The notes beneath the pieces are model-generated. The model saw nothing but the letters and a program-made list of their open reading frames with translations. It ran no database searches and was not told where the DNA came from. A DNA stretch of 64,000 nucleotides from Flavobacteriales bacterium UBA1494 (GTDB taxonomy: Bacteria > Bacteroidota > Bacteroidia > Flavobacteriales_E > Vicingaceae), in the NCBI GenBank assembly GCA_905182175.1, contig CAJJAT010000013.1, positions 1 through 64,000 of the forward strand, given 5' to 3'. The position numbers and the translations under genes are program-made. Position 1 is the stretch's first letter. Each line of letters opens with the position of its first letter. Below, in pieces: positions 31,841-60,635 of the stretch.

Positions 31841-33100
31841 CTATAGCTTGATTCCTAACAAAGTTACGTCATCTGTTTGCTCAGAATCTCCCTTCCAAAG
31901 GTTGAAATTGTAAGTAAGAATACTTTTCTGTTCCCTTAATTTTTCATTTTGTATTGAAAGGAGCAAATTTGTGAAATTTAGTGAGTTAAAACATTTATCA
32001 GAAGGGCCTCCAAACTGATCAGTGTATCCGTTTGAGCTGAGATAGAGCATATCTCCTGATTTATATTTTATTGTATGCTCTTCTATTTCAAATTTTTCAT
32101 TCTTACAGCCAATAGCAAATCTACTTCCCATTACCTTAAAGAGCGGCTTTCCGGTTCTTTGAGAGTACTTTTTAATTTTTTCACAGACAACCGTATCTAC
32201 TTTGTTTGTTATTAAATAGAGTGGGCTTTTAGCGCCCGCGTAGGTAATTGACTTATTTTTTTGGTCAATCGCACAGATTACAACGTCCATCCCAACTTCA
32301 TTGTGTGTTCTTTCATGCTCTTCCATAAAAATCAATACCAGTTCATTTGCTTTCTCCAATATCTCTTTTGGCTTTCGTAACCCGTAGTGCTGAACAGTTA
32401 AATTTAGTACATTATAAAAACAGATTGATAACAATGAGCCCTGTATGCCATGACCTGTGCAATCTACCACAGCAATTAATTGAATATCTCCAAAATTTTG
32501 AATCCAATAAAAATCTCCCGAAACACTAAATTTAGGTTGGAAGTAGATGAAATTATCAGGAAAAAGATGACTTATTTCAGATTTTCTAGGTAAAATAGCA
32601 ATTTGAACATTAGCTGCTGATTGCAGATAATCTGTCCATTTTTTTTTAGCGGCAGAGTCTTCTAGAGCAAGTTCTTTTATTGCTTTTGTAATTACATCTT
32701 TAGTACTATCCTCAGATAATTTATGGAACTTTTCTATTTTTTTAAAGTGCAATTTAATAACAGATAAAAGTTCTTTGGGCTCAAATGGTTTCGTAAGGTA
32801 GTCTTCGGCACCCAGATTCATCCCTATTCGTATATCGGATACTTGAGACCTCGCACTCAGAAAAATAAAGGGAATAAAGGATAAGTCAGAATGATTTTGA
32901 AACGCTTTGATGGTATCTATTCCGTCCATTTGTTTCATTATCATGTCACAGACAACAAGATCTGGAGAAGATTCAATCGCTTTTTTAAAGCCTTCTTTAC
33001 CATTCCTTGCTTGAATAACTTTATAATCTGATATCGCAAGTATTTCTGAGAGCGTTTCTCTTATATTGGCCTCGTCTTCTATAATTAGAATCTTTTTCAT
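31841..33100 (-). CDS. Response regulator with PP2C (SpoIIE/RsbU-type) phosphatase output
   Basis: Signal protein of 419 residues: a receiver domain at 1-120 with phosphoacceptor Asp52 (VVCDMIMKQMDG) and Lys in TKPFEPKE, a short helical linker, then a SpoIIE-type Ser/Thr phosphatase domain from about 185. Metal-binding patterns are SGDFYWIQ, VVDCTGHG, SSNGYTDQ and TDDVTLLGI. Family knowledge: such proteins dephosphorylate anti-anti-sigma factors or other partners when the receiver is phosphorylated. It lies downstream of the kinase/LytTR cluster on the same strand, with 208 bases between. No anti-sigma or STAS gene is nearby. Confidence 0.93.
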   Translation of the reverse strand: MKKILIIEDEANIRETLSEILAISDYKVIQARNGKEGFKKAIESSPDLVVCDMIMKQMDGIDTIKAFQNHSDLSFIPFIFLSARSQVSDIRIGMNLGAEDYLTKPFEPKELLSVIKLHFKKIEKFHKLSEDSTKDVITKAIKELALEDSAAKKKWTDYLQSAANVQIAILPRKSEISHLFPDNFIYFQPKFSVSGDFYWIQNFGDIQLIAVVDCTGHGIQGSLLSICFYNVLNLTVQHYGLRKPKEILEKANELVLIFMEEHERTHNEVGMDVVICAIDQKNKSITYAGAKSPLYLITNKVDTVVCEKIKKYSQRTGKPLFKVMGSRFAIGCKNEKFEIEEHTIKYKSGDMLYLSSNGYTDQFGGPSDKCFNSLNFTNLLLSIQNEKLREQKSILTYNFNLWKGDSEQTDDVTLLGIKL

Positions 33101-33308
33101 ATCGAAAATTTTAACTTTACAATGTTAGGATGCATCAGATGAAGATGAAACAGCAGATTTCCGAATGACTGCTTTTGCTTACCCAAAGTAAAGTGAACAT
33201 TAATTTATTACAGGTGCTTTTTTTGGGCTAAAATTTATACTGTGCGATAGTATGTTATCTTTAACAATCCAATATGGACCATTTCTGCGTTAATTTAGCA
33301 TTGGAAGT

Positions 33309-34055
33309 TTACTCATACTTTAAAAGTTTCAATAACTCGTCCTTCTTACGAGTTGCAACTGGTACTGTAGATCCATCCGATAAAACTAAATATCCCCCTT
33401 TACCTCGAACATATCTTTCAGCGAATCGGAGGTTTACAATGCCTGATTTGTGAACTTTAAAGAAACCATTGTTAATTAAAGCAACTTCAAATTCTTTCAT
33501 TGGTTTTGAAACCAACATCTTTTTGTTATCTATTAAGTGAAAAAAACAATAGGCTCTTTCGGCTTTACATTGTATTATTTGCTCAAAAGGTACCAGTTCA
33601 AGGCCCTCTTCTGTCGGGATAGTGAGTTTTTTAAAGCGTTCTTTATAAGCAGAAGATTTACCACTCTGTGGACCCAACATTTTTTCCCGCTTATTTATTC
33701 TTAATTGAATAATTTTTAAAATTTCTACAGGATCAAATGGTTTTAGAATATAATCATCTGCTCCCAAATTCATCCCATATCTGATTTGTTCTTTTTCCAC
33801 CTTAGCAGTTAGGAATAAAAAAGAGGGCATAATTTTACTGGCATACTTTTGGGTAATTAATTCCAACAATGCAAATCCATCTAATTCAGGCATATTTACA
33901 TCACACAAGACTAAGTCAGGCTCTTTTTCTAATATCACAGCGTAACCTAATTTTCCGTTGCTTGCAGTGAATACATCATACCCACTAAATTCTAGAATTT
34001 CCTGTAGGGTTTCTCTAATGTTAATCTCATCCTCAACTATTACAATTCTGGTCAT
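33309..34055 (-). CDS. LytTR-family response regulator
   Basis: DNA-binding response regulator of 248 residues. The receiver (1-122) has the acidic pair ED at 8-9 region, phosphoacceptor Asp52 (LCDVNMPELDG), Thr in FLTAKVEKEQ and Lys in LKPFDPVE. The LytTR domain covers about 150-248, with FFKVHKSGIVNL and the VPVATRKKDELLKLL end. LytTR proteins bind pairs of 9-bp direct repeats; two such repeats lie in the divergent promoter region upstream of this operon (41367-41396). The gene overlaps the kinase by ATGA, so kinase and regulator are probably a cognate pair. Confidence 0.94.
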   Translation of the reverse strand: MTRIVIVEDEINIRETLQEILEFSGYDVFTASNGKLGYAVILEKEPDLVLCDVNMPELDGFALLELITQKYASKIMPSFLFLTAKVEKEQIRYGMNLGADDYILKPFDPVEILKIIQLRINKREKMLGPQSGKSSAYKERFKKLTIPTEEGLELVPFEQIIQCKAERAYCFFHLIDNKKMLVSKPMKEFEVALINNGFFKVHKSGIVNLRFAERYVRGKGGYLVLSDGSTVPVATRKKDELLKLLKYE

Positions 34056-36397
34056 CTTTTTTGTTTTTGTATGGTGATAGTAAATGTAGAACCTTCTCCT
34101 ATTATACTTTCAACATTTACTCTACCACCCATTAATTCTAGGTAAGCTTTTACAATAGAAGTTCCTAGACCTGTTCCATTAATATCGCCCACATTATCAG
34201 CTCTGTAAAATGGTTCGAAAATGTTACTGATGTCACTTTCTGGAATCCCTATTCCAAAATCTTGAATGGTAATGGTTAACATATCTTTTTTATATTCGAC
34301 GTGAACCAATGGCGTTTTATTTGTTAAAGAATACTTGAATGCGTTTGAAACTAAGTTCGAGAATGCGTTTTCAAACAGTTTAGGATCTAATTCGTACATC
34401 GATTTATGGCCATCAGAAGTTACATAAATCTCTCTGCCATCTGTCTGAATTTCGTTGTGTTTTTGTATTATTGATTGTATTAAGACTAATGCGTCTACCG
34501 ATTGAAGATTTGGCTTCAAGGTTCCCGAATCGTTCTTCCCTAAAATTAAAACATCATCCATTAGGTCAGTCATTCTTTTCACCTCAGTTTGTATTCTCTG
34601 GTATACTCGTTCAAACTTTATTTTAAAATCCGGTCCTACTTCTTGAATTTGCATCTCCAACAACCCAATGTTTGATAGAATAACTGTGAGTGGTGTTCGA
34701 AATTGGTGTGAAGCGGTCGATACAAACTGAGATTTCAATTTACTGAGTTCTTTTTCTTTTTGATAAGCGATTTCAATTTTGTTCTTTGCTTTTTCTAGGT
34801 CCTTTGTTCTTTTCAGCACTTTAATCTCTAACTCCTCGTTCATACTTCTTAAAGTTTGCTCACTTATTTTTTTTTGAGTGACGTCTTTGATTAAAAGCAG
34901 TATATTTTCAAAGCCAATTGATTCATTCATTGATGAAATATCCAAAGTATACCATTTTGACCTATTCTTAAATTCCAAATTGGGCGATTTACCATTGTCA
35001 ACAAAATTTTGAATAGCTTCAACAACAAATGGCACAACTTTTTTCTCAAAAAAGGAATGAACAGTCAATTGTTTAGTTTCAGAACGAGATATATTAATTA
35101 AAGCAAGTTTGTTGGCGTATAACACATCTAGGTGTTTATTAACCTTTAAAACAGCCTGTGGTAGTTCTTCTGCCAGTAATCTAAATTTCGCTTCACTTTT
35201 AATTAACTCATTTTCTTTAATTTTTGATTCAGTAATGTCTAAACAAGCAACTGTTAAGTTTTGGAGCTGGGTTTCATTACTCGTCATTACTTTTCCTAAC
35301 AAAAAGAGGACTTTTTCCTTTCCATCCGGTGTAATTATGCGAGCTTCAAAAGAAAAATTTTGGTTTAATTTTATCGCATCAAATATTTCTTTTTTAGCTC
35401 GCAGTCGATCTGAGTGATGGAAAAAATTTAAATAATTCTGAAATGAGATCCCAATAACATCTGATTTGGTAATACCATAGATATTAGCTAATGTGTCTGA
35501 CCATTTTATCTCATTGGAGTTTGTTTCGTAATTTAAAGTTCCAACTCCAGCCATTTTTTGAGTTTCCTCCAAAAGATTGTTGCGCTCTTTTAGTAACTCC
35601 TCAAGTTTCTTTTTCTCTGAAACATCTCTTATTATACTTTCTATCCCAATAGGATTCTTCTGGTCATCGTAATATAATTTGGACGTTAACGAAATGGTTT
35701 TTTTCCTCCCATCTTTTGTAACTATTACTGTATCTAATTCCGTTAAATATTTTAGCTCCTTAAGTTTTTTGATATGCGCTGTTCTTTTATCTGCGCTACC
35801 GCAACAAATATCAGCACTACCGCACAAAACACTCATATCCTTACCTATCAAATCTTCTGGTTTATAGCCGTAAATAGTTTCTACCGATGGACTAATGATT
35901 TCAATTTTCCCCGAAAAGCTCGATCGAGATAAGACATCTGACATAGAATTAAAAATATCTCTGAACTGGCTTTCACTTCTTGTTAAATTATTTTGTATTA
36001 ATTCCTTTTCTTTATTTAATTGGTATCCTTCTATAGCTAAAGCAACTATTATAATAATGTTACTTGGATCGAAGGGTTTGGTAATGCACTTGTGCACTCT
36101 AGTTTCGTTTATGGCTTCTTTCAACACATTAATGTCTGCGTAGCCCGTGAGTAATATAGTTGGTATTAAAGGGGCTTTTTTCTTTATTTTCGCTAAGACC
36201 TGTAAGCCCGTCATCTTCGGCATTTGCTGGTCAGAAATAACTAGATCAAAAGATTGCTCGTCAAATAAACGCAGGGCTTCTTCTGCACAATTTGAGGTAA
36301 CTATGTTGTATTCTTTTCTAAGCAATGCATGTACTATTCTCAAACTGAATTCATCATCATCAACATATAAAATTGAGTGTTCTTTTTCTTGAGCCAT
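34052..36397 (-). CDS. Hybrid sensor histidine kinase REC-PAS-PAS-PAS-HisKA-HATPase
   Basis: A 781-residue cytosolic kinase with no membrane helix. An N-terminal receiver (Asp56 in VISDQQMPKMTG) is followed by three PAS domains: about 145-265, with C-terminal PAC SLTSKLYYDDQKNPIGIESIIRDVSE; about 280-395; and about 400-515. Then come HisKA (STASHQFRTPLT, His near residue 560) and HATPase, with N-box NAFSNLVSNAFKYS and G boxes DFGIGI and GTGLGTSIVK. The first PAS holds a Cys-rich stretch, VLCGSADICCGSADKR. It overlaps the LytTR regulator by ATGA and begins one base after the broken receiver gene. Confidence 0.94.
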   Translation of the reverse strand: MAQEKEHSILYVDDDEFSLRIVHALLRKEYNIVTSNCAEEALRLFDEQSFDLVISDQQMPKMTGLQVLAKIKKKAPLIPTILLTGYADINVLKEAINETRVHKCITKPFDPSNIIIIVALAIEGYQLNKEKELIQNNLTRSESQFRDIFNSMSDVLSRSSFSGKIEIISPSVETIYGYKPEDLIGKDMSVLCGSADICCGSADKRTAHIKKLKELKYLTELDTVIVTKDGRKKTISLTSKLYYDDQKNPIGIESIIRDVSEKKKLEELLKERNNLLEETQKMAGVGTLNYETNSNEIKWSDTLANIYGITKSDVIGISFQNYLNFFHHSDRLRAKKEIFDAIKLNQNFSFEARIITPDGKEKVLFLLGKVMTSNETQLQNLTVACLDITESKIKENELIKSEAKFRLLAEELPQAVLKVNKHLDVLYANKLALINISRSETKQLTVHSFFEKKVVPFVVEAIQNFVDNGKSPNLEFKNRSKWYTLDISSMNESIGFENILLLIKDVTQKKISEQTLRSMNEELEIKVLKRTKDLEKAKNKIEIAYQKEKELSKLKSQFVSTASHQFRTPLTVILSNIGLLEMQIQEVGPDFKIKFERVYQRIQTEVKRMTDLMDDVLILGKNDSGTLKPNLQSVDALVLIQSIIQKHNEIQTDGREIYVTSDGHKSMYELDPKLFENAFSNLVSNAFKYSLTNKTPLVHVEYKKDMLTITIQDFGIGIPESDISNIFEPFYRADNVGDINGTGLGTSIVKAYLELMGGRVNVESIIGEGSTFTITIQKQKR

Positions 36398-36398
36398 A

Positions 36399-36767
36399 TT
36401 AAGATTGTATTACTGATTTTATGGTCGCGTTTAATTTTTCATAATTCCAAGGTTTAGGAATAAATTCTAAGAGCATGTATTTTTCTTTTGCTTCCTTTAC
36501 TTCATTTGTCTCTTCAAATCCCGAAAACATTATTCTGGAAGGGCGAGTTTGAGGAAATTGTTCAAAAATCTGTCTTAGTAATTGGAAACCCGTCATTTAT
36601 GGCATTCTTTGATTCGTTATTAACACATCAGGATCTTTATCTGTTATTATTTTTAACGCTTTTTTATCGTTTGCAGAAGTTAATACAGTGTAATCTCTTC
36701 TAAGAGCAGAACGAAATGTACTTAGGTTTGCTTCCTTATCGTCTATGTATAGCACTGTAGGTTTCAT
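36399..36767 (-). pseudogene. Broken single-domain response regulator
   Basis: A 123-codon frame from MKPTVLYIDDKEANLSTF to the C-terminal FIPKPWNYEKL and IKSVIQS is a complete receiver, except that a TAA (36597-36599) interrupts it exactly where a conserved residue follows MP in QRMPxMTGFQLL. The phosphoacceptor position also reads Asn (ITNQRMP) instead of Asp, so the domain could not be phosphorylated even with read-through. It overlaps the upstream kinase remnant by ATGA (36764-36767). Either a recently inactivated gene or two short pieces; the former is far more likely. Confidence 0.88.
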
Positions 36768-37983
36768 TCTTTCATTTTGTTTAGTAAATAAACTCTAAAA
36801 GAAGTCCCCTCATTACGATTGCTTGTGTAGGTAATAGTTCCGACGAGATTCTCCACAATGCCAAAACTGATGTATAAACCAAAGCACGTGCCTTCACCCA
36901 CTTTTTTGGTGGTTACAAAAGGCTCGAAAATTCGATCGCCCAATTCTTCATTTATTCCGGAACCATTGTCGGAAACTGTAATAGTAGCGCCTTCTCCTTG
37001 ATTGAGTGTAGTTACGTTGGTAATTACCTCTTTTTCAATAGCTTGTTGATATTTCATAACCTGTTTTATGAAACCTGTTGTAGAGAGCATGAGTACCAAT
37101 TTACCTCATTTATATTTTCCTGCAAATTACAATTTAATTTAATTTGTTTCTCACTAATTCGTTTAACTATTTTGAGATTACTTCTTATTACTTCATTTAC
37201 ATTTACCTTAGAGTGTTGGTTACTATCCACTCTTGAAAAACGTCTTAATCCACTAATGATTTCTGGCGTTCTAGGAGCCCCCATCTTTATGTCTTTAATA
37301 GAGGTTATTAAGTTATTTTTTAGGTAGATATATTTAATCTGTCCTTTTAGTATTTCTATTTTTTGAGCCACATCTGGTAGCTGTTTTTCAAAGTCTATGG
37401 TTTCATAATAATCCAACAATTTCAAAAGATTTACAAGATCCAATTCAATACCTATCGCTCCGGCATTTACATAATTGATCGGGTTATTAATTTCGTGGGC
37501 GATTCCTGCTGTTAGCATTCCCAAAGAAACCAATCTATCTGACTGGATTAATTTAGTCTGAGACTGGCTAACTTGCAGAAGTGCTTGTTGCAATCGCTCA
37601 CTCTGCCTTTTAATAGTTAAATGTGTGTTCACCCTGATCAATACTTCGTCGAAATGAAAAGGCTTTTCAATGAAGTCAACAGCAGCGACTTCAAAGGCTC
37701 TTATTTTATCCACTACTTCAGTTAAGGCGCCCACAAAAATTATTGGTATTTCAGCCATATCTCCATGACTTTTTATAACCCTGCAGGTTTCATAACCGTC
37801 CATCCAGGGCACTTGAACATCCAACAAGACTAGATTTGGGGCTTTTGCCTTAATGCTTTTGATTGCTTTCATTCCGCTCATTGCTAGCCGAATGATATAT
37901 CCTTTAGGTTTCAATATACCCGCTAATACTTTTAAGTTTTCAAGGTTATCCTCAACCAACAAAATTTCATCCCTTTCTATCAT
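36764..37983 (-). pseudogene. Frameshifted response regulator-histidine kinase hybrid
   Basis: The first frame (37983 to 37066) encodes a receiver with Asp55 (VLLDVQVPWMDG), a coiled-coil linker and a HisKA domain with GMLTAGIAHEINNPINY (His163). The kinase core then continues in another frame (37099 to 36764) with VSDNGSGI, FEPFVTTKKVGEGTCFGLYIS and a normal HATPase end. Where the N-box (NLLxNA) should be, only damaged sequence is found, so a small deletion accompanies the shift. ATP binding would be abolished. The start overlaps the preceding dead kinase stop as TAATG. Confidence 0.87.
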
Positions 37984-40900
37984 TATTTATCTTCTTTGAC
38001 TAATTCTTCTAAACTTTCTACGTTATATTCTATTGGGTAGTTGCTAATCAGTTTTGATGCCTTTTTATGAGAAGTTGCCAATTGTCGATTGACTACTTCT
38101 AACTCTTCTATGTCACCCAAGATAATACTTTTCTTTATCTTTAAGGTCTATAGGTAGGGCACTTATGCCGTCCATATCTGTTTGTAAATCCGCAACATCG
38201 TTTTCTAATAAATTTTCAAAACCGTAATCGTACTTAACTCCTGTGCAGACTTGAATCTCGTGAAGAACTTCTGACAATTTAAATGGTTTTTAATAAAATT
38301 GTTCTCTTCACAATTAATAAATAATTCTTGTTCTTCATCAAATGTACTTGCGCATATCCCAATTATTCTAACTTTTTTCCTATTCTTCAACTTTCTTATT
38401 TTAGTCGTCGCATCAATTCCGTTTATCGTTAGCATTACCAAATCCATTAAAAACAACATCGGGCAACTATCGTTGAAATGAATGTAATTCATCTTTACCC
38501 TTAATTGCAGATGTTACTTCAAACTCAATGGACCGAAGTAAAATTTCTAGCACTTCTCTATTCTCCAATCTCCAAAATATCATCAACCACTAAAATTTTC
38601 CTAAGTGGTTGACCTTTTTTAATAACTTCTACTTTCTTAAAAGTATCTTCTCTTAGTAAAATTCTGTAATCCACCTCTAAGTACGGAAAAGTTAAGACAA
38701 ATGACGACCCTTTACAATATTTACTTTTTTTTCGTTAAATCTCCTTTTAGCAAACAAGCTAACTTTTTGCTGATTGCGAGGCCTAAAAACAGTTCATCCT
38801 TTTATTTTCATCCTTCGTTTGCTCAAAGAATTGAAAATAATTAACAGATTATCGTCATAAACGCCTAAAAATTTATTATTTTTTGCAATATAAATAATAC
38901 AGTCCTTAAAGCTGGTATTGATTAGTATGCTCTCGTTGTCTGTAAATTTTACTGTATTAGATAAAAGGTTAACTAAAATTTGCCTTACCTTTTTTTCTTC
39001 TACATGAACGAGATAAGGAGGCTCATCCATACATGTTTTAAGTAATTTTAGTCCTTTTTTGCTCAATTCAAATCGAAATATTTCGATTAACTCTTGTAAT
39101 AATTTTACGGGTTCAAAAGTGTTGTAACTGAGTTGCATTTTTCTGGCATCTATTTTTGATAGGTTAAGCACAACGTTAATTAAACCTAAAAGTTGATTTC
39201 CACTCTTGTTGAGAGACTCCAGACTGTTTTGTTGCGCAATTGAAATCCCTTTCTCTCGGGATAGGATTTGTACATGTCCTAAAATTGTATTCATTGGGGT
39301 TCTAATATCATGCGAGATATACGCTAAGAATTTACTTTTTGCATTATTTGCTCGCTTTGCTTTTAGTCTCGCTTCTTTTATTTCTTGTTGAAATTTTTCA
39401 CGTTCGATTATTAAAGTAAGCTGCTCTTGAAGGTCTTTAATAAGTTCATCCAATAAATCAATTCTTTCATTTTTCGAGTTTTTGTAGAAGAACTCGAATA
39501 CTGCAACCACCTCATTTTTATAAGAAACAGGAAAACGGAAGGCTCCAGTTACTCCATATTTGCGTGCTTTTTTCTCTCTTTTGAAATTATTTTTTTATTT
39601 AAAGTCTTTTTTCCAAACTGCTTTTTGCTCCTTCGAAGCGGTTCCTCAAAGCTTTTTTCCTATTAAGTAGTTTGTCTTTTAGGTTGCTTCCTTAAAACTT
39701 CTTCAATCTTTTTTTCCTTTAGTGTACCATATTTCAGACGGATTTAATTTCTCTTTTGCAGAATCTGGATAATGAACATGTCCCACAGGCCAGTTGATAT
39801 ATGCACAGATACTTTGTAAAGCCTCTAGCAGTAATTTGTCTATGTTTTTTGCTTCAATTGCAACTTCAACAAATTTCATTAAATACAACACCTTTGTTTT
39901 CTTTCGCGCTCTTTTTATTAAATCGTCGCCGGTGCTAATGATTCCAATAATACTCCCTTTGTTATCGAAGCTATGAGAAGTATTCCAGGTAATTAATCGT
40001 TCAAATCCGTCTTTACAAAGCGCTAAGTTTTCCGAATATTTCTTATCGTCTTCTAAACTTCCATTAATTATTTCAAGAAATAATAGACAATTTTAGTTGC
40101 AAGACGGTTGGGAACAAAATTAGATGGAAAGTATTTTCCTGTCATCTCTTCCTTTTTGTAACCATACAATTTACAAGCAAAGTCATTGATTATACCTACA
40201 TTGCCTTGCTTGTTTAAAATTAGAATAATAGAGGGTAATGTGTCAAAATAATTTTGGAGATGCTTTTGGTTATTTATGATCAATTTATAGGCATTCACAA
40301 GTTTTTTACGTGTTGCTAAAAGAGTTTCATTTTTTCTTATTGCTTCCGTAATATCTTTATTGGTTCCATCGCATCTAGCGACTTCTCCGTTAGCATCATA
40401 AATAGCTCTAAAAGTGGATTGGACATAGTGTAATTTATTATTTGTGTCCGTAATCTGAAACATAATTTCTTGATTTTCATCCTTAGAAGTAGTAAGTTTA
40501 AATTTCTTGGCTAAAGCAATTAAGTCACCAGGATGCACAAACGTAGTCCATTTAGTATATGTGAATATTTAGTCCGCAGTACATCCATATACTTTTGAGA
40601 TATCTCTAATCCATTTTATTGAATGATCATGAACTAAGATTTTAAAAATTAAAAAAGAAGCAGTCCCATGCTCAACATTAATTGTTCGTTTAAATAATCA
40701 GCCCTCTCCTTGTTCTCTTTTTCTTTAGTTATATCTGCAAAGGAGCCCATATATTAGGTGGCTGCTCCGTTTGTGTCAATGTCAAATACGGACTCTCTGG
40801 AACGTCACCACATCAAACTGCTGTCTGCTTTTTTAAATTGGTATTCGAATTCTAATATTTCATCACCTTTCATTGTTTTAATGTTATTGCTGTGATTAGG

Positions 40901-41098
40901 TGTCGAAAGTATTTTATCTGTGTGGAATAAGTTATAAAAATCTGCCTCTCTTAATTTACTAATAGCTTCAAAAGTGTATCCAGTTAATTTTGTATATCCG
41001 TTATTCACATAAATCTTTTGTCCTTTAATTAGATTGAAAACATATACTCCATTTAAAGAAAACTTTAATAAATTTGCATTAGATACGTTATTGCTCAT
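37983..41098 (-). pseudogene. Extensively degraded large hybrid histidine kinase
   Basis: Successive fragments in one order, different frames, outline one former gene. There is an N-terminal PAS (41098-40805, NGVYVFNL, YVNNGYTKLTGY). A second PAS (about 40800-40540) has stops. A third PAS/PAC unit lies at 40538-40068 (TNKDITEAIRKNE, IINDFACKLYGYKKEEMTG). A GAF-like piece (39891-39703, ICAYINWPVGHVHY) is followed by HisKA and N-box (39510-38794, AYISHDIRTPMNTILGH, QILVNLLSNTVKFTD). A G2 relic GLAISKKLACLLKGDL follows, then a receiver (KILVVDD near 38595, and 38492-38205), and a C-terminal acidic tail to the TAA at 37983-37985. At least six interruptions make it clearly non-functional. Confidence 0.88.
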
Positions 41099-41308: not shown

Positions 41309-41369
41309 ATCAATAAAGTGACTCCTTTACAATAAAATTAAATCGAAATCAATAAAGTAACACTTTACC
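41309..41369 (+). repeat. Direct repeat ATCAATAAAGT with dyad in the intergenic region
   Basis: ATCAATAAAGT occurs at 41309-41319 and 41348-41358, 39 bases apart. Both copies continue into related sequence (GTGACTCCTTTAC and GTAACACTTTACC). The second copy contains the dyad AAAGT-AAC-ACTTT. It resembles a duplicated operator half-site, in the region between the dead kinase gene and the giant PKD gene. Confidence 0.45.
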
Positions 41370-41396
41370 GTTTATTTGTTTTTTAGCTACGTTTGG
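41367..41396 (+). promoter_or_regulatory. Candidate LytTR binding site (two 9-bp direct repeats, 12-bp spacer)
   Basis: ACCGTTTAT (41367-41375) and TACGTTTGG (41388-41396) both match [TA][AC][CA]GTTN[AG][TG] at every position, and the spacer between them is 12 bases, the spacing described for LytTR sites. The second repeat also contains TACGTTTG, a match to the -7 promoter consensus TAnnTTTG. The site may therefore overlap the promoter of the giant PKD gene, whose start is 55 bases further on. A LytTR regulator is encoded at the end of the divergent operon. Confidence 0.55.
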
Positions 41397-41450
41397 AAAT
41401 TGTACTAATACAAAAGCCTAATTCCCTCCTTAATATTAAGTTTCTTATAA

Positions 41451-44400
41451 ATGTTGATCAATATAGATAGAGTGCAGTATGACAAATTAATCCTTATCCT
41501 TTTACTAAGTTCTGTTACTTCCATTGCACAGGGCCAAAATACGTTGCCCGTTGCCGACTTTCAACTTTCTGCTACTAACGGCTGTGCTCCGTTGTCAGTT
41601 TCAATCATCAACAGTTCTTTAAATGCAGCTCAGTATGAATGGAATTTTGGAAATGGGGGTTCATCAATAGCAGCTCAGCCTTCAATCGTGTATTCTTCCA
41701 AAGGGGTTTATGATGTTAGCTTAATTGTAAAAGATACATTGGGGAACTCAGATACATTGCTGATAATAAATGCAATAACTGTAAATGAAATTCCTATTGC
41801 AGATTTTGACCAAACCATTAACAGGGCATGTTTAAATCAAAATCAGATTAATTTCACCAATCAATCTACTGCGGGGTTAAACTACACCTGGGATTTTGGA
41901 GACGGAAACTCTTCTAACCTGACGAATCCAGTATATTCCTACTCTGACTCAGGTAGTTACACAGTTACTCTCATGATTGCTGATAGTATTGGATGTAGTA
42001 ACTTTAAACAAGCTACCCAAGCGATTAGGATTGTAATGACACCTGAACTTAGCTTTTCAGTAAATGATACCGTTGGGTGCGATACTTCACAAATTTTTTT
42101 ATTTAACTGTTCTGTAGATTCAATAACAAGCTGGCATTGGTCTTTTGGCGATGGAGATACTTCTCTAATAAAGAACCCAACACACCGGTACAAAAATACA
42201 GGTAGGTACGATGTTCACTTAATTACTACCAACCAATTTGGTTGTTCTGATACGCTAAAGAAGAACAATTACATTCAAGTTCTTATCACACCAAACATAG
42301 ATTTTACTTCATCGGTAACAACTGGCTGTGCTCCATTAAGCGTGCAGCTCATTGCAGATAGAACTAATTTTGTGGCATCTTATCAATGGCGATTTAGCGA
42401 CGGGAGGTCACGAAATGGAGATACTGTACAAATAGCTTTTAATAGATCAGGAGAGTATTCAATTACACTAATTTCCACCAATATAAATGGATGTGTTGAC
42501 TCTACTTCAAAAACAAACTACATAACCGTTAGTGGGGGAGCAATCGCATCTTTTTCAACAGATTCTTCAACGCTTTGCAAAAATGGGTCCATTGGGTTCA
42601 TCAATACTTCTCAGCATGCAAACTCCTGTTTATTTTTATGGGACTTTGGTGATAGTGCAACTTCTAGCGCAGAGCATCCTAATCATTCTTTCAATCAAAC
42701 AGGACGCTACACAGTTTCGTTAATTGTTACCGATTCAACCGGCTGCACTAACACTGATTCAGCATTACTTAATATAGAAGACTTACGAGCAGATTTTACT
42801 GTATCAAAAGTAAGAGGATGCCTCCCTTTAACTGCATATTTTCAAAATATTAGCACACCTGCGGACAAGTGGTTTTGGGATTTTGGTGACGGAGATACTT
42901 CTCACCAAGAGAATCCAATGCACTTGTATCAGTCGAGCGGAGAGTTTGATGTTTCATTAGTAATTGAGACTCTTTCTGGTTGCATCGATTCTATTCATTA
43001 CCAGGATTTAATTCTGGCTCACGATGACTCGTTAACAGGTAGCTTAACGGATACCATTACGGGGTGTTTACCCCTGCCCATTGATTTTTCTTCCAATCAA
43101 TTCGGGTCCGGTAGTTGGGTTTGGGACTTTGGAAACGGAGATACTTCTATGTCAAGAAACCCAACCTACACTTATCGGCAACCTGGCATCTTCACTGTTA
43201 CACTTAAAACCACAAGCACTGACGGCTGTCCGGTCTTCGTCGAAAACTATACTACCGTCATGATTCAGAGTATCGTTCCAAAAATAAGTGCGTTGCAGTT
43301 CAACTGTGAACAAGCTACTTTGCAATTGACAGATTCGACAGATAACATAAGTAGTTGGTTTTGGAATTTTGGAGATGGTACTTATTCAACCTTACATAGT
43401 CCCATTCACCAATTTCCCGATACCTTAGTCTACGATATTTCAGTCACTTTAATAAACACAAACGGTTGTATGCAAAGTGTATTTTTTCCTGGTTTTATAG
43501 ACTTTACAAATTGTTTTGTAGGTGGAAAGGTACCTACATTAGAACCGGATTCTGGAGGTTCTGCAAACAGAGGAGATTCCATAAAATCAAGTACAGTGTT
43601 TGCTCAAAGGTGTGCCCCAGAAATTGTGCAACTAACTAATCCAAATATAAATGCCTTTGCTTGGCACTGGGATTTTGGAGACGGAGATACTTCTAATTTA
43701 GAGGACCCACTGCACATTTACAGAATGCCTGGTGTTTATAATGTGCAATTAATTACAGAAGATTCTTTAGGAAGAGATACGATACTTTGGATGAATTATG
43801 TTTCTATAAATGGGCCAATTGCAAATTTCTCGACCACTATACTTGATGATTGCGATAGCGCAACCGCAACGTTTAATAATGTTTCTAAAAGGGCAAATTC
43901 ATGGGTTTGGCAATTTGCAAAGTACAGTGATTCAACTACTAATTCTCCTCAGTATAAGTTTCCATATTCAATTCGGAATCATGTCGTTTACCTACGAGTG
44001 AATGATAGTTCAGGGTGTTCCTCTTCTAAAATAAGTATTTTAAACTTTCCAATAAAACGAATCTCTTTCATCCTTCCTGACTCTGCTTGTGTGGGCGATT
44101 CGTTGTATTTTAGAGCGAGCGATTCTTTATCAACTTATACCTGGTCTTTTGGAGACGGAAGTGCAGACAGTTCTTTTACTCCGATGCATATTTATTCGAA
44201 TGCAGGTGTTTATGCAATTCAAGTAATAAGCACAGATTCTAGGGGGTGTGAAAATATTCACCTTCTTGACTCTATTCGAATAATTGGATCCTCTGCAAAT
44301 TTTCAAATAATAGATACAGTGCAGTGTAAAAATCAACTTTTTGCTTTTGTGCCGCAAGAAACTAGCGCAAATTCATATTTTTGGAATTTTGGGTCAAATT

Positions 44401-47243
44401 TAACAAGCGCAAAGCAACTACCTAGCATAAAATTAAGTCAGGCAGGAAACTACAACATTCGTTTAACTGTCCAAAAGGAAGGTTGTCAAAATACGTTTAC
44501 CAACCCAATTTTGGTTCAAGTAAAAGAGGTCGATGCAAATTTTACAATAACACAACTAAACCACTGTTATCCAATTCAGCTTGGTGTAACTGATACGAAT
44601 TCTAATTCTGCTCAATGGACTTGGGGAATTGATAACACAAAAATTAATAGCTTAAATCAATACTTGTTTGCTACCCTAGATAGTTCCGTTACTGTTTCCC
44701 TTAAAGTTACTGCGCAGAACGGGTGTGTTGACTCCATTACAAAAGTATTCATTCCTACAGCGCTTAACTCAAATTTTAAAATTTCAGATACTCTTGGTTG
44801 TGCACCTTTAAGTGTGAGTTTTACGAACAAAGCTGTACATTCCGTTCACTCCTATTGGAGTTTTGGTGATGGAGATACATCATCAATCGCCAGCCCGAAT
44901 CATACTTATACTAGCGAGGGAGTATACACTGTTCAGTTAATTACGATGAGTTTAGATGGTTGTCGGGATACTACCACCTATCAAAATTCAATTCGAGTTT
45001 CCTCCATTCAAGCTAATTACAGCAACGCATTTAGTAGCTCTTGCGCACCTATGCTAGTAAACTTTGTAGATTTATCAAATCATGCAATTTCATGGAAATG
45101 GAGGTTTGGAGATGGAATGACTTCAACAGCTAGAAACCCCCTTAAAATATACAATAACTCAGGTGGTTTTGATGTCTCCTTATCGGTAACAAACAATGAA
45201 GGGTGTAAGGATACTTTGACGCTGAAGAATGATATTTTTGTTCCTGGGCCCATTACAAATTTTTCGGTATCCGACTCTGTCGTTTGCGGAATAAATCCCG
45301 TACAGTTTACCGACTCTTCAACTGATGCCGCGCAATGGAATTGGTTTTTTGGAGATGGGAATACTTCAAATCAACAAAATCCTGTACACACCTATACCAA
45401 TCCTGGAGCGTATTCTATAACGCTAACAACTACAGATTCTTTTGGGTGCAGCGGATTTTTTACCTGGGCTAAAATGTTAGAAATGAATTATGCGCCTACT
45501 GCAAATTTTCAGATAAAAGATTCAGTAGGTTGCGCCCCATTGGAGTTAGAGTTAGCTTGTCAAAGTACAAATGCTAACCAGTGGGAGTGGAACCTTGGTA
45601 ATGGCTCTGTTTATAAAGATAGTTCACTACGCTATACAGCCTTCAACGCCGGTACTTATTCTATTTTATTAACCGTTAAAAATGAGGCAGGCTGTTCCGA
45701 TAGTACTAGATTTGACAGCTTAACAGTTCTTCGCACTCCAAATTCATATATTCAACCAATTGACCCTATTTGTAGCAATGAAAATCCAGTAAAACTTACT
45801 TCTCAAGAATTGGGCGGAGTCTGGTCTGGATTGAGCATTACTGATAATAATACCGGATTTTATAACCCCAAATTAGCAAATAATGTTGTTGATACTGTTA
45901 TGTATAGTTTTCAAGGTGCCTGTCCGGCAAGCGATACGCTTCTCATTAAAATAAAAGAAGCTCCAGAAGTAGATTTTGTAGCCAATGAAACAGAAGCATG
46001 TGATCAATTAGCTGTAAAATTTGAAACGGTTTTTTTAAAGGAGCTATCTGCTGATTTGAAACCAGTTTATAAATGGCAACAAAATGGGATTCAATTTGGA
46101 AATACCCCGATGGTAAATAAAGTGTTTCAATCTGGTTTGTATTCCATTAGCTTAGAAGTTTTAACGATTAATGGCTGTAGAGATGAAATTAAGAAACCGC
46201 AATTTATTATGGTATTTGACTCTATTCTCTCTAAAACAAACATAGAGAGAGTCTCCGTATTGAATGATCAAGAGGTTTTGGTAGAATGGGAAAAGAATAC
46301 AGACCTTGACTTTACTCACTATGTTTTGTATCGAAAAACAGCTTTAGATAGTGTGTTTAGCGAAATCGCAGCTTTTTCTCATGCGGATCAAATCAGTTAT
46401 CTCGATGATTCATTAAACACAACTGATTCAACTTATTGTTATAAAATTGTTTCTGTAAATAAATGTGGACTTGTAATGACATTGAGTGATGTTTCATTTC
46501 ATTGCACTATAAATGTAACTGCGAATAAAGTAGGGCAAAGTGCTATTGGTGTTCGGTGGAGTAGTTACGTGGGCGGTTCAGTCGAGTTTTATGAGATTTT
46601 TAGATTAGACAAGGTGTTGAATCAATCAAATGTAATTGCACGAGTAAATTCTACCAATTTTGAGTTTACAGATACTTCAGCCTATTGCAATTATGATTAT
46701 AGTTATAAAGTAAAAGCAACAGGTAAAGCTGGACTTATTAAGGGATCTTTTAGCGACACAGCAGAAACAAGAATGGAAGGAATTGCTCAATTCCAGAAAT
46801 CAGAAATTATAAGAGTCGCTGTTGACGATAATAGTTCTGTATTAGTGGAATGGTCACCAGTAAAAATTGCACCTGAATTTGCTACCGGTTACGTAATTCA
46901 TCGCTCTTTAGACAATAAGCTTTTCAGTCCCTTAACTTTTATTCCTATAGGAGATACAAGTTATAACGATAGAGCAACTTCAGTAATAGATGAGCGCTAC
47001 TTCTATCAAATAGAGGTTTTGAATACTTGTGTAAATAAAAATCAATTAACCAATACAGGTTCTTCAATCCTACTAAATTCTACCCAAATTGACAACTACA
47101 CAGGTAAATTAAGGTGGACTGGATACGAAAAGTGGGATGGAGGAGTAAAAAGTTATGAAATTCAGCGCTTAAATGAATTCAATCAATGGGAAACTATTCA
47201 AATCGTTCCGCCCGAGCAACGAGAAATAATTATCAATTTCTGA
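41451..47243 (+). CDS. Giant PKD-repeat surface protein lacking a T9SS sorting domain
   Basis: Predicted extracellular protein of 1930 residues: signal peptide (about 1-29, ending AQGQ), then 17-18 tandem PKD-type beta-sandwich repeats. Each has the WxFGDGxxS core (for example WDFGDGNSS, WSFGDGDTS, WVWDFGNGDTS) and the GxYxVxLxxx strand followed by GCxD. A C-terminal part of about 380 residues looks like fibronectin-III modules (VEWEKNTDLDFTHYVLYRK, VEWSPVKIAPEFATGYVIHR, YEIQRLNEFNQWETIQ). Related proteins end in a type B sorting domain, but here the frame stops in the last FnIII-like module. Another frame continues briefly (SDFHENTKKNLSRLVC), so a frameshift is likely. Adhesion or gliding role is inferred from family. 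Confidence 0.88.
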   Translation: MLINIDRVQYDKLILILLLSSVTSIAQGQNTLPVADFQLSATNGCAPLSVSIINSSLNAAQYEWNFGNGGSSIAAQPSIVYSSKGVYDVSLIVKDTLGNSDTLLIINAITVNEIPIADFDQTINRACLNQNQINFTNQSTAGLNYTWDFGDGNSSNLTNPVYSYSDSGSYTVTLMIADSIGCSNFKQATQAIRIVMTPELSFSVNDTVGCDTSQIFLFNCSVDSITSWHWSFGDGDTSLIKNPTHRYKNTGRYDVHLITTNQFGCSDTLKKNNYIQVLITPNIDFTSSVTTGCAPLSVQLIADRTNFVASYQWRFSDGRSRNGDTVQIAFNRSGEYSITLISTNINGCVDSTSKTNYITVSGGAIASFSTDSSTLCKNGSIGFINTSQHANSCLFLWDFGDSATSSAEHPNHSFNQTGRYTVSLIVTDSTGCTNTDSALLNIEDLRADFTVSKVRGCLPLTAYFQNISTPADKWFWDFGDGDTSHQENPMHLYQSSGEFDVSLVIETLSGCIDSIHYQDLILAHDDSLTGSLTDTITGCLPLPIDFSSNQFGSGSWVWDFGNGDTSMSRNPTYTYRQPGIFTVTLKTTSTDGCPVFVENYTTVMIQSIVPKISALQFNCEQATLQLTDSTDNISSWFWNFGDGTYSTLHSPIHQFPDTLVYDISVTLINTNGCMQSVFFPGFIDFTNCFVGGKVPTLEPDSGGSANRGDSIKSSTVFAQRCAPEIVQLTNPNINAFAWHWDFGDGDTSNLEDPLHIYRMPGVYNVQLITEDSLGRDTILWMNYVSINGPIANFSTTILDDCDSATATFNNVSKRANSWVWQFAKYSDSTTNSPQYKFPYSIRNHVVYLRVNDSSGCSSSKISILNFPIKRISFILPDSACVGDSLYFRASDSLSTYTWSFGDGSADSSFTPMHIYSNAGVYAIQVISTDSRGCENIHLLDSIRIIGSSANFQIIDTVQCKNQLFAFVPQETSANSYFWNFGSNLTSAKQLPSIKLSQAGNYNIRLTVQKEGCQNTFTNPILVQVKEVDANFTITQLNHCYPIQLGVTDTNSNSAQWTWGIDNTKINSLNQYLFATLDSSVTVSLKVTAQNGCVDSITKVFIPTALNSNFKISDTLGCAPLSVSFTNKAVHSVHSYWSFGDGDTSSIASPNHTYTSEGVYTVQLITMSLDGCRDTTTYQNSIRVSSIQANYSNAFSSSCAPMLVNFVDLSNHAISWKWRFGDGMTSTARNPLKIYNNSGGFDVSLSVTNNEGCKDTLTLKNDIFVPGPITNFSVSDSVVCGINPVQFTDSSTDAAQWNWFFGDGNTSNQQNPVHTYTNPGAYSITLTTTDSFGCSGFFTWAKMLEMNYAPTANFQIKDSVGCAPLELELACQSTNANQWEWNLGNGSVYKDSSLRYTAFNAGTYSILLTVKNEAGCSDSTRFDSLTVLRTPNSYIQPIDPICSNENPVKLTSQELGGVWSGLSITDNNTGFYNPKLANNVVDTVMYSFQGACPASDTLLIKIKEAPEVDFVANETEACDQLAVKFETVFLKELSADLKPVYKWQQNGIQFGNTPMVNKVFQSGLYSISLEVLTINGCRDEIKKPQFIMVFDSILSKTNIERVSVLNDQEVLVEWEKNTDLDFTHYVLYRKTALDSVFSEIAAFSHADQISYLDDSLNTTDSTYCYKIVSVNKCGLVMTLSDVSFHCTINVTANKVGQSAIGVRWSSYVGGSVEFYEIFRLDKVLNQSNVIARVNSTNFEFTDTSAYCNYDYSYKVKATGKAGLIKGSFSDTAETRMEGIAQFQKSEIIRVAVDDNSSVLVEWSPVKIAPEFATGYVIHRSLDNKLFSPLTFIPIGDTSYNDRATSVIDERYFYQIEVLNTCVNKNQLTNTGSSILLNSTQIDNYTGKLRWTGYEKWDGGVKSYEIQRLNEFNQWETIQIVPPEQREIIINF

Positions 47244-47427: not shown

Positions 47428-47895
47428 ATGACCTCACCTATCCGTATTTTTTTATTTTTTTTCAGTTTTGTATTATCTCTTTTATTTTTTTCAATGGGGG
47501 TAAATGCCCAAAATAAGGCAAGCTACTCTATAGAAAATGGAAGCTACAGAGTAGTAGCTGTAAAACACGATAGTAAAAGGATTGAAAGCACCTCTAATAA
47601 CGCAGAGTTATTGAATCCTTCAACGAGTTATTTTCCAAATGCCTTTACCCCAGACCAAGATGGATCAAATGATAAATTTGGAGCAGTAGGAATAAATGTT
47701 GAAAAATACGAGTTGAAAATATTTAACCGTTGGGGAGAATTACTTTTTGAATCGAATAATATAACTCACAAATGGGACGGAACCCACAACGGAACCGCGG
47801 TTGCTGTTGGTGTTTACGTATATACCTTCTTTGCAATTGAAATGACTACTAGAAGAAGTATTTCAAAAACGGGTACGGTAACACTTTTAACATAA
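47428..47895 (+). CDS. Minimal T9SS type B sorting-domain protein
   Basis: A 155-residue protein: signal peptide (FFFSFVLSLLFFSMGVNAQ, cleavage near residue 28), a linker of about 40 residues, then a complete type B C-terminal domain (YFPNAFTPDQDGSNDKFGAVG, YELKIFNRWGELLFES, WDGTHNGTAVAVGVYVYTFFA). There is no passenger domain. It sits between the giant PKD gene, which lacks this domain, and porP/sprF, so it may be the detached tail of a former single cargo or the shell left by loss of a cargo region. It could be secreted alone, or be non-functional. Confidence 0.82.
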   Translation: MTSPIRIFLFFFSFVLSLLFFSMGVNAQNKASYSIENGSYRVVAVKHDSKRIESTSNNAELLNPSTSYFPNAFTPDQDGSNDKFGAVGINVEKYELKIFNRWGELLFESNNITHKWDGTHNGTAVAVGVYVYTFFAIEMTTRRSISKTGTVTLLT

Positions 47896-47910: not shown

Positions 47911-48864
47911 ATGAGATACTTTTATTTGTCTATTGTAGGAATCGTCCTTTGTTTAAATCCTGTTAAATCTCAACAAACTCATTTCTCTCAATTTTACACC
48001 ACTTCAATGTATCTCAATCCTTCTTTAGCAGGAATTGAAAAAGAATCAAAACTTACATTGAACTACAGAAATCATTGGCCACAAATTCAAAACTCTTTTA
48101 TAACTCAGAATGTTAGCGTTGAGACAAATTTGTCTCGTTTTAATAATGGGTTGGGAGTAAATGTATATCGCGATCAAGCTGGCGATGGAATGTTAACGGT
48201 GACTTCGTTCAGTGGAGTATATGCTCATGAAATAAAACTAAGTAGAGACCTTTATCTCAGAGTTGGTGCTAAATCTGGATTCGTTCAAAAAAATGTCGCT
48301 TGGGACAAATTGGTTTTTGAAGATATGATTGATTCTCGAGGAGGGATCGAATTCAATACACATCAAAAGTTTGGAGAAGCTATTTCTTACATTGATCTAT
48401 CTTCAGGTATGTTTCTCTATTCTGACAAATATTACGGAGGATTTTCTATAAATCATTTAAATCAAGCCCAAGCCGGCTTAATTAACAAGAATGGTAATTC
48501 AAAATTGCAGAGAAACTATACCATTCATGGAGGAGCCAAATTCCTTTTTAATGGCAACAGCGGTTACAGCATATCTCCAAATGTTATATTAAGTAAGCAA
48601 GGTAACTTTACCAAATTTAATGCAGGTGCATATGTTGAAGCAAACTTTCTAGTGCTTGGACTTTGGTATGCGAGCTCTGAAGCTATAGTAATTATTGTTG
48701 GGGTTAAAACTAAGCGTTTTCAAATTGGATATTCTTATGATTTATATTCTTCTAATGTGATTGGTAAAAGTTTAGGGTCTCACGAGATATCTTATGTACA
48801 TAAATTTAAGAATACAAGTGGTAAGACTAAAAGGTATAGAACTAGTTCTTGTCCTAAATTTTAA
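47911..48864 (+). CDS. PorP/SprF family type IX secretion outer-membrane protein
   Basis: A 317-residue barrel protein with a signal peptide and the family start QQTHFSQFYTTSMYLNPSLAGI, NYRNHWP, then regularly spaced amphipathic strands (LGVNVYRDQAGDGMLT, LYLRVGAKSGFVQKNV, YYGGFSINHLNQAQ, FQIGYSYDLYSSNVIG). Family knowledge: PorP/SprF-like proteins are encoded beside type B sorting-domain cargo and are needed to tether or export that specific cargo. It lies 15 bases after the minimal sorting-domain gene, so they form an operon. It ends in a basic tail. Confidence 0.92.
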   Translation: MRYFYLSIVGIVLCLNPVKSQQTHFSQFYTTSMYLNPSLAGIEKESKLTLNYRNHWPQIQNSFITQNVSVETNLSRFNNGLGVNVYRDQAGDGMLTVTSFSGVYAHEIKLSRDLYLRVGAKSGFVQKNVAWDKLVFEDMIDSRGGIEFNTHQKFGEAISYIDLSSGMFLYSDKYYGGFSINHLNQAQAGLINKNGNSKLQRNYTIHGGAKFLFNGNSGYSISPNVILSKQGNFTKFNAGAYVEANFLVLGLWYASSEAIVIIVGVKTKRFQIGYSYDLYSSNVIGKSLGSHEISYVHKFKNTSGKTKRYRTSSCPKF

Positions 48865-49454: not shown

Positions 49455-51360
49455 CTATTCGGTAAAAAAGAATTTTTTAGTTACCATTAAATAAGAGTAC
49501 AGAATTAAATTAACAAAATACAGTTCACTTGATAAGTTTTCGAAATAGAAAGTAAATGTTTGTCCGGAAATATTCTGCATTTGTTTTACATCCCGACATG
49601 TGAGTTTTAAACCATAAATTTTGAGTTTTTTAAATTATTATTTGCACGAAAAACTGTTTTACCTAAAAATGGATTTGGGTAGATTTCTAAATTAAAATTA
49701 CCTAATCCATTAAACATTTCTGAAACTATATCAGAGTAGCCGGTTTTTCCATCATAATCAATTTGCTTTAAACGATGCTAAGACTAACCCTTTAGCGGGG
49801 AATCATCAATCGTAGAATAGTTCTTGACGTGCGAGCTGTTTCCTGATTAATTTATTTTAAATAGGGAAGAAAAACTAATGCCATCCGCTCTGCGCTCAAC
49901 AGTAAAGTAGTCGTTCTTAATTTCAGCCGTGGTAACCCAATCAAGCCGGACATATGAATTTTTTGCCTCAGCAATAAAACTTAACAACTCGGTAGGTAAT
50001 GTCGCAGTCTGAGTAGCGTTATAGCAAAGTGGGTCATTGAAAATTACTCTAGAGCGAAATCCAACTACTCCCGCTGTTAACAGCATCTTTCCCTCTACAA
50101 ATACAACAGCCTACATACCTCAAGCACATCCATGCGCAAGAATAATACCTTTTATAACGCTAAAAGTTTCAATGGTTGTGGTCCTGCTCGCAACTCCTCC
50201 TCCGGAAAGTCAAATTACATTGCTGCGATGCGCTCCATTAGTGAAAATTACTTTTGATTGTGCAGCTACAGAAAATGCTCCTGCAAATTTAAAAACAAAT
50301 ATTGCACCGAGGTTCTTTTGAGTGTCTTGTAATATTCCCTCCTAAGGATGCTGATCCTGAGATAAAATACACACCTTCAGTCAGGGTTTCTCCAAATCCA
50401 AATCTTGGTGCATGTGTACTAACCGTATTTGGTAAGAGCATCAATTTATTGTAAGCATTGTCTAAGCACGTTTTCGCTTGTACTGAAATTGCATCTGCAG
50501 CATGATTTGATCTCACAATAATTGATGAACCGAATCCACTTATTGAGCAGGAATTTGAACCAATATTACCAACAATACATGGTGTTGCAGTGTCTGTAAC
50601 AGTATCTGCACCGGCAAAAAAGCGAAAAATCACCAGTACTTCAAAAAACATCCATGGCAGCAGCCGGATCGCTAACACTTCTGCATGGTATTGCAATGGT
50701 ATTATTGCTTTTAGCTGCGATATCTACGCCAGCTGCTCCTACTGTTAGCTCTCTTCCTGTGAAATGCATTCGCCCTTCTAAACCGCAATTTGTAGCATGG
50801 GAAATTGCCCCCATGTGAAAATAAAGGGCCCTTTAAAATGCTTCCAGCTCCCACTGAAATGGCACCTTTGGTAATCCAATAAACATTAGCGGTTCGTGTT
50901 TCATTTATTAAAATAACTCTTGACGTTGCACCTATTGTAATTGCTCCAAGGTATTTAATTATAAATACAGCATCTGTATTTCCTCCCTCGTTAAGAGTAA
51001 TTGATCCTACTACAGAGCCAGTGCCCACTATAGAATAAATTCCTAGACTAATCTTTTCACCTGTTCCAAAAGCTGCAGCATGTGTGCCGAGATGAGCAAC
51101 AAAAATATCGTTTATATGAAAATATAATATCATTATATTCACTCTTGCTTAAAGTGTTGTTGCATTACTGTCGTGGACGGTGCCGGTAAAATTTGGCGTT
51201 ATAAACTCTGTTATTACGCCACTATTTGTTTCAATATCGCTGGGAAATATGCCTGAATTTGTTTAGGCCCTCTATCCGGTGAATACCTCAAAAGTTGAAA
51301 TTATAAAGTTTCCCGTCGCATTACTATACATTCCCAAAGTCCAAACAGATTTTTTGTTTA
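49455..51360 (-). pseudogene. Degraded ice-binding-like (DUF3494) T9SS protein, copy A
   Basis: Read on the minus strand, fragments trace two DUF3494 domains. The first includes DSNATTL, HAAAFGTGEKISLGIYSIVG, SITLNEGGNTDAVFIIKYLG and NVYWITKGAISVGAGS (51142-50711). The second includes TPCIVGNIGSN and FGFGETLTEGVYFISGSASLGG (50696-50289) and then, shifted, GAIFVFKFAGAFSVAAQSKV. The linker LPTELLSFIAEAKNSYVRLDWVTTAEIKNDYFTVERRADG (50086-49847) and a type A sorting domain (LEIYPNPFLGKTVF, ISGQTFTFYFENL, YFVNL, VTKKFFFTE) end at TAG 49455. Several frameshifts and stops make it non-functional. Confidence 0.85.
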
Positions 51361-54306: not shown

Positions 54307-54348
54307 TAGGAGGTAGAACATTAAAGCGATTAGATATACTTCTTTCAT

Positions 54349-58367: not shown

Positions 58368-58938
58368 GTTTTGATTAGCCGCTCCATGTTAATTAACTAT
58401 TAGATGCCAAAATAATCTCAAAGCTTGAATAGATTTCAAAAACATTCAACTTCCTAATGTGCATTCAGGATTTTCCAATGTTTTCAAAAATTTATAAATT
58501 ATATAAATACTGGAGATTGATTTCATAATGAAAACGAAGTGGAAAATATTTGTGCTTTTTTGTATATCTAAAATTCAATTAAATAAGCAGAATTTCAGTT
58601 GATTTAAGCTGCTTCTTAAAAAGAGAAAAGTAGAAGAGTTTCTTTAAGGTTTGTTGCAATTTCCAAACAAAAAAATGATTGCGGTGAGCTATTAATTCCA
58701 TATATATTGAAACATTGTTTCCCTAAAAATAGAAAAAATAAAATTGTTTCTCGAGGGTATTCTCATAGCGCACATTAATTGGTATAATTCTCGATTTTTT
58801 TGTAAAAAATAAACCTAGATCAATGTAGGTTTAAACATTTCGGGTATTAATTCGCAGGCAGCATATTTAGTAAAAAACCAATGTCTAAGGTTATCGAAAA
58901 TTGGAGTGGCTATTTAAATAGGTGTAAGGGTTGGAAAA
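58368..58938. other. Non-coding AT-rich region
   Basis: No gene, RNA or terminator recognised. It separates dead copy B from the small repeat-bearing secreted protein; the promoter of copy B would have been here. Confidence 0.55.
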
Positions 58939-59539: not shown

Positions 59540-60635
59540 GAGTGCAGAACTAGACTAGGGGAGTATCAAATTTTAACTACCCTGGCTCTAGAGTATTTTA
59601 CATTTTCTTATCTCATGGTGGGCTGTCGAGTGATAAAATTTACCTCAATAAATTACAATCGATCCAAGCATTATTTACCGTTACCAACATCTGATTATAT
59701 GTAACATATCAACATTTTTTTGGGATTAACGTTACAACTCGATTTATTTCCATTATAACTGACTTTGAGAGCATTTGCTTTATACATCTACTTGCTATCG
59801 TTAGCTCCTTCTGTTGACTTTTAGGCATTAACGCTAAGTTTCAATTTTACTTCTTCGTTTTCTGTCATATTACTATTTTTAGTTCTTATTGTCATTTGCT
59901 CCATAGAACAACTAGATTTTAAATTGTCGGAAAAATAGGTTTTTGAACCTTTGTAATAAACAAATACTCCATTAGAAAGATTTCATAGCGAGAGAAACTG
60001 CCATTCTGATAAAATGAGTTAACTAATGCCATTTATTAGGTTTATCCCTGACCGGTTACTTTCTTAAAGAGTTCATAAAAAGATCAAAAGCAATAAAGTA
60101 AAGATCCTGTTAACAAAAACCTTAGAGTCGGTGTTATTAATTTTTTAGTTCATAATTTGTTCTTTTCATTTACATATAAATCTAATATACAGATTAAATT
60201 AAAATTTTTGAATTAAGTAATGTCCAAACGTGAATATTCAATTTCCCAATGTATTAGATGTCTTTCTTTGCACTGCAATAATTGTTTAAATTACTTACTT
60301 TAAGTAACGTTTTAAGAAATACGGACGAGGAAAAATGGAACATAAGAAGAAATTTCTTTTGTTTATTTGAAATCGGAAAGCATAAAAAGCTTCAAATTTG
60401 ATACACATTTAATCTTTTTTATTTTGTGTTTAAATAGAAGTTGAGAGATTTTCTTCTAGGTAGGTGCTTTTAAGAAAGGCCATTCAAAAGTAGGGACGTT
60501 TATATTTTTGATTTACGGACTATCGTCTCATCAAACAATTCTATCTTTACAACCTAAGGAGTCAAGGTATAATTTAAAGTAGTACTTTCAAATAGGGTCT
60601 AATTACTTAAACAGAGTATAATCATCTGTTAGCAA
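59540..60635. other. Mostly non-coding region with a possible short gene relic
   Basis: A minus-strand open stretch near 59820-59970 reads GVFVYYKGSKTYFSDNLKSS and ends VKLKLSVNA before a stop, as a fragment of a secreted protein might, but it has no start and no identifiable family. The rest is AT-rich and empty. Confidence 0.35.

Follow-up and report, generated by a model that had tools for sequence, protein, structure and literature searches.

The pair of half-sites in front of a giant PKD-repeat protein gene of Flavobacteriales bacterium UBA1494 probably belongs, as a true but weak case, to a family of promoter switches that has been conserved, and sequence comparison makes it likely to be a LytTR binding site of an activator-type promoter. 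The predicted site (41366..41398, + strand of the 64,000-nucleotide stretch of DNA that was analysed, hereafter the window) consists of ACCGTTTAT at 41367-41375 and TACGTTTGG at 41388-41396, with a 12-bp spacer and a period of 21 bp. These half-sites, their coordinates, and their spacer had been given in a preliminary description of the window, and all were exact on re-checking. At loci that encode orthologues of the nearby LytTR regulator, two ACGTT-cored half-sites 21 bp (two helical turns) apart, followed 31–32 bp later by a Bacteroidota -7 box, are a recurrent arrangement, and in the sequence comparison such sites precede genes of signalling proteins and of type IX-secreted surface proteins.

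Downstream of the site lies an intact operon on the + strand, which encodes, in order, the giant secreted PKD-repeat protein (41451..47243; 1930 amino acids, with 15 Pfam PKD_4 stretches), a protein with a CHU_C type IX sorting domain (47428..47895), and an outer membrane protein of the PorP/SprF family (47911..48864). The operon that diverges from the same region on the - strand was said to encode a kinase and a LytTR regulator. This holds for the kinase next to the LytTR gene, which is intact, but the first gene of the operon, encoding a hybrid PAS/histidine kinase (38000..41098), is a pseudogene with at least three frame changes and internal stops. It is followed by a receiver-kinase gene (36767..37983) that is frameshifted near 37.1 kb. 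Downstream of these two broken genes are the genes for the intact receiver-PAS kinase (34052..36397; receiver, PAS, HisKA, and HATPase domains), for the LytTR response regulator and presumed activator (33309..34055, overlapping the kinase gene by 4 bp; Pfam Response_reg 1.1e-25, LytTR 3.2e-13), and for a receiver-SpoIIE (PP2C phosphatase) protein that is a predicted target (31841..33100). Neither the pseudogene that heads this operon nor the strongest site of the window, which precedes the SpoIIE-type gene, featured in the preliminary description. The regulator reads FFKVHKS at the position of FhRhHRS, the DNA-contact motif of LytTR domains (PMC4227749). The first divergent kinase is intact in two relatives, G005 and G007 (936 and 758 amino acids), and the loss of the sensor is possibly under way here, with both leading genes (36767-41098) frameshifted; these frameshifts were read from the assembly and may be true decay or errors of assembly. 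The genome as a whole codes for about a dozen LytTR domains. Two LytTR-domain matches (G000:C14:136530-136790 and C9:100780-100965) contain an in-frame stop each and may be pseudogenes.

In this single genome, the evidence for the pair alone is weak. Half-sites occur 97 times in the 64 kb on both strands (1.5 per kb); about 0.08 pairs with a 12-bp spacer would be expected in the window by chance and one is observed, and at all other spacings between 5 and 25 there is at most one pair. When the 352-bp intergenic region was shuffled with its dinucleotides preserved, four or more half-sites were found in 64 of 5000 shuffles and a 12-bp pair in 7 of 5000. Over the whole 3.33-Mb genome, the exact consensus pair occurs three times, compared with six occurrences of the reversed pattern, so the genome scan that the preliminary description proposed shows no enrichment above chance. 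Within the pair, the first half-site is poor (ACCGTTTATTT vs the consensus TTACGTTGGGAA) and the second is strong (TACGTTTGGAA). The further matches at 41172 (+) and 41286 (-) that had been counted in the same region are present, but they score below 8 in the matrix of conserved sites, look like chance occurrences, and were rejected as sites.

The arrangement is kept in two relatives. Both G005, of the same genus (regulator 64 per cent identical), and G007, of the same family (55 per cent), retain the gene order that diverges from the PKD giant, with an intact first kinase. In G005, the intergenic region reads AACGTTAAT-N12-CACGTTAGG, with ACGTT cores 21 bp apart and with the place, period, and strand of the site in the window. 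In G007, it reads TACGTTGGG-N12-CACGTTGGG on the opposite strand, again with ACGTT cores 21 bp apart, and the site faces the kinase rather than the PKD gene. The whole intergenic regions of the window and G005 align no better than shuffles; therefore, only the site and the -7 region carry signal.

The 21-bp period is shared across the regulator-orthologue loci, although many of the relatives are represented by fragmentary metagenome assemblies. Eight intergenic [AC]CGTT pairs have a period of 21 (corresponding to six independent sites, as L073 and L105 are the same G007 locus and a palindrome in L089 was counted on both strands), compared with 0–1 at each other period from 10 to 35. With a half-site matrix, 42 pairs were found at period 21, vs 3–12 at other periods. 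The resulting site consensus is TTACGTTGGGAA-N9-TTACGTTGGGAA; directly behind one LytTR gene (L095:10894-10989), at least four half-sites stand in register at 21-bp steps. In leave-locus-out rescoring, 39 of the 40 training sites stayed at 12 or above. Wherever the gap between the LytTR and SpoIIE genes is at least 60 bp, every non-duplicate relative has a sense-strand site of at least 12 bits and none has an antisense one; the two loci with a gap of 31 bp or less have no site in the gap. A search of 46 family genomes with the refined consensus, allowing up to three mismatches, did not rise above the reversed control, as each genome has too few genuine sites and these are too degenerate. A profile that includes the -7 box outperformed this search, and in the window's genome its best two matches, as well as three of the five at E-values of 0.1 or less, fall on this contig.

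The distance between the repeat and the -7 box is similarly constrained. Of 45 sites, 20 are followed at exactly 31 bp, and four more at 32 bp, by the start of a TAnnTTTG-like box (counted as TA plus at least three of TTTG, and not part of the matrix), compared with a mean of 0.24 at other distances. The count of 20 comes partly from orthologous SpoIIE promoters, and the 31-bp distance is also found before genes for subtilases, OmpA, CHU_C/IgGFc-binding, PKD, and receiver proteins and kinases. Given that the Flavobacterium -7 box spans -12 to -5 (PMC9723704), the repeat pair is centred near -60, as are AgrA sites (PMC4227749). Known LytTR sites have 12-bp spacing and lie just upstream of -35 (PMC6193735, PMC4227749), with the repeats of LytTR Regulatory Systems about 10 bp upstream of it (PMC6193735). 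The repeat just upstream of the promoter region, at a fixed -7 distance, is thus arranged in the standard geometry of a LytTR activator, and activation is the likely mechanism. At the PKD giant, the -7-like box (TAATATTA, 41431..41438, +) is weak and begins at 32 bp, one base off the usual 31; in G005, the homologous position has TAATATTG and keeps the 31-bp distance. With a +1 near 41443, as proposed, only about 8 nt would remain up to the ATG at 41451, and translation could instead start at an in-frame GTG (41472).

We scored the window with a 39-bp matrix whose training set excluded it. The six best matches (33159, 28.2; 60222, 21.4; 58451, 19.8; 60243, 17.4; and 51310, 15.7, all on the - strand; and 41366 on the + strand, 12.7) are all intergenic, the next scores are 10.9 and 7.2, and the reversed window sequence has no match at 12 or above. 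The PKD-giant site is the best + strand match in the 64 kb and the lowest-scoring of the set, being outscored at four minus-strand places, which lie upstream of the SpoIIE-type regulator, two decayed ice-binding genes, and a small secreted-protein gene. Specifically, the strongest predicted LytTR-type site of the window (33159..33191, -) is situated between the stop of the LytTR gene and the start of the SpoIIE-regulator gene and has a -7 box (TAACATTG) 31 bp downstream. At 60222..60275 (-), three half-sites at period 21 account for two overlapping matrix matches, with a -7-like TATATTAG at 32 bp; there is no intact open reading frame directly behind them, and the small secreted-protein gene (59538-58942) lies about 0.7 kb further on. 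Another predicted site (58451..58483, -) is upstream of a decayed, frameshifted ice-binding-like/type IX gene (58388 to 56578), and a second decayed gene of the ice-binding-like kind (51148 to about 49600) has a weaker one in front of it (51310..51342, -); both genes bear type IX tail fragments. Neither the intact paralogue (51623-52972) nor its upstream neighbour (52969-54348) was found to have a LytTR-type site before it.

In relatives, the genes behind the sites encode either secreted proteins (CHU_C, Por_Secre_tail, SprB, PKD, subtilase, or OmpA) or signalling proteins that belong to these LytTR systems. In several divergent pairs of genes (L089, L092, L100, and L103), each gene is faced by a site of its own; of the two opposed sites in L103, one belongs to a PKD giant and is followed at 31 bp by a -7 box, and the other belongs to a CHU_C gene. 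The orthologous G059 operon has a site in front of its genes for a haem-NO-binding (HNOB) protein and a kinase (L082:12210-12946), which suggests gas sensing as a lead on the input signal. Sites scoring at least 18 occur at 125 per Mb in orthologue loci vs 7 per Mb in a control set, in which several loci come from genomes that also carry the regulator; at the other LytTR loci of the window's genome that were checked, no site reaches 18. Within the family, profile matches are better in genomes that have the orthologue than in those that lack it (Mann–Whitney test; P-value = 8e-6), a comparison that includes the E-values of matches in G046 and G061 (L207 and L209) that have a conserved leader in common, lack the usual -7 position, and were excluded from the regulon. 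For the three genomes outside the training set only, the P-value is 0.003, which is soft, as the rank of G046 rests on a non-regulon match.

The regulator combines a receiver with a LytTR domain, the sites are direct repeats with a spacer of about 12 bp, and a cognate kinase is encoded alongside, all of which characterize LytTR response-regulator activators; from co-occurrence and architecture, we infer that the LytTR protein of 33309-34055 would bind the pair. The earlier proposal of a LytTR-type site at the pair, linked with this regulator and with the T9SS adhesin operon, thus gains support from synteny, period, and the held-out matrix. Its suggestion of possible control of the regulator's own operon is likewise consistent with sites that face signalling genes, including the LytTR operon in several relatives.

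It could be that the family regulon is real but that the 41367 pair, as a chance match or a decayed one, is not bound any more in this genome. The weak first half-site, the weak -7 box, and the lowest score of the set fit such a reading, as does the decay of the adjacent sensor and target genes, and an exact pair arises by chance about 0.08 times per window. We nevertheless consider it unlikely: G005 has its site at the same place, period, and strand even though the whole intergenic region aligns at shuffle level, the PKD operon is intact, and among the intergenic shuffles only 19 of 5000 reach the score of the PKD-giant site and 1 of 5000 reaches that score together with a -7 box at 31/32 bp. 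It is less probable still that the regulon is shared by another regulator that reads the site, be it an unrelated factor or another of the genome's dozen or so LytTR proteins. The sites cluster at the loci of one orthologue group, inside its operon, none lies near the other LytTR genes checked, and both comparisons of genomes with and without the orthologue point to this regulator.

The preliminary description saw a -7-like box overlapped by the second half-site and took this to favour repression or a competing polymerase contact; on the repressor reading, the second half-site would itself be the -7 box, and LytTR binding would block the polymerase. In the window, TACGTTTG indeed matches TAnnTTTG, but it is the only + strand half-site there that embeds the box. 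The relatives read ACGTTGGG or ACGTTAGG at this position, not TTTG, and a separate -7-like box follows the repeat at 31 bp (32 bp at the PKD giant), as expected of an activator. On the relatives' sequences and this downstream box, the second half-site was rejected as the -7 box, and repression of this kind is highly improbable.

Under the favoured reading of the pair as an activator site, PAS-type kinases of the same operon would phosphorylate the LytTR regulator, a dimer of which would bind the repeat centred near -60 and recruit RNA polymerase. The activated targets would be the SpoIIE-type gene and the operon of the PKD giant, CHU_C, and PorP proteins, joined in several relatives by the kinase operon itself. 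As read from the sequence, the switch is partly decayed in this genome: the first sensor kinase and two target genes are broken, and the PKD site is weaker than the SpoIIE site. The remaining PAS kinase (34052-36397) would therefore be the input here.

The predicted system resembles the LytTR activators AgrA, ComE, and HdrR/BrsR (LytTR Regulatory Systems) in its LytTR domain, two direct repeats with a 12-bp spacer upstream of -35/-33 and centred near -60, and autoregulation (PMC6193735, PMC4227749). It differs from them in its half-site (TTACGTTGGGAA), the fixed 31-bp distance of its Bacteroidota -7 box, its predicted targets (type IX-secreted proteins and a SpoIIE-type regulator), and its two-component rather than membrane-inhibitor input. 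The LRS-like operons of Bacteroides thetaiotaomicron and B. ovatus also combine a LytTR protein with direct repeats in Bacteroidota, with an 11-bp spacer and a position 11 bp upstream of a TGTA-19-TATCTTTG promoter (PMC6193735). Their half-site is TCCGGTATTCA, however, their regulator is membrane-embedded, and only autoregulation has been proposed. A further point of reference is PorX of Porphyromonas gingivalis, which, to our knowledge, has no LytTR domain. PorX/PorY-SigP likewise exerts two-component control over type IX secretion genes in Bacteroidota (PMC4800418, PMC8265659), but it acts on machinery genes via an ECF sigma factor, whereas cargo and adhesin genes are the predicted targets here. 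We rejected control of the PorXY-SigP type here: the regulator is a LytTR protein, and the sites face secreted cargo and signalling genes. No comparable system was found among open-access titles and abstracts on LytTR with type IX secretion, Flavobacterium, Bacteroidetes, P. gingivalis, or H-NOX.

A motif that is weak in one genome can thus turn clear through comparison. With an operator at a fixed -7 distance, predicted targets in uncultured marine Flavobacteriales can be narrowed to a short list, and LytTR activation can be tested directly on the unusual promoter of Bacteroidota. The timing of T9SS adhesin display in Bacteroidota is poorly understood, and the known PorXY-SigP route concerns the machinery. 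We tentatively hypothesize that, in several genera of Flavobacteriales, an undescribed LytTR/SpoIIE signalling module may govern how adhesins and proteases exported by the type IX system are displayed, independently of the secretion machinery. Under this hypothesis, its sensors would be interchangeable (PAS/GAF kinases and, in one relative, a haem-NO-binding protein), and in this genome the module may be undergoing dismantling from its sensor end.
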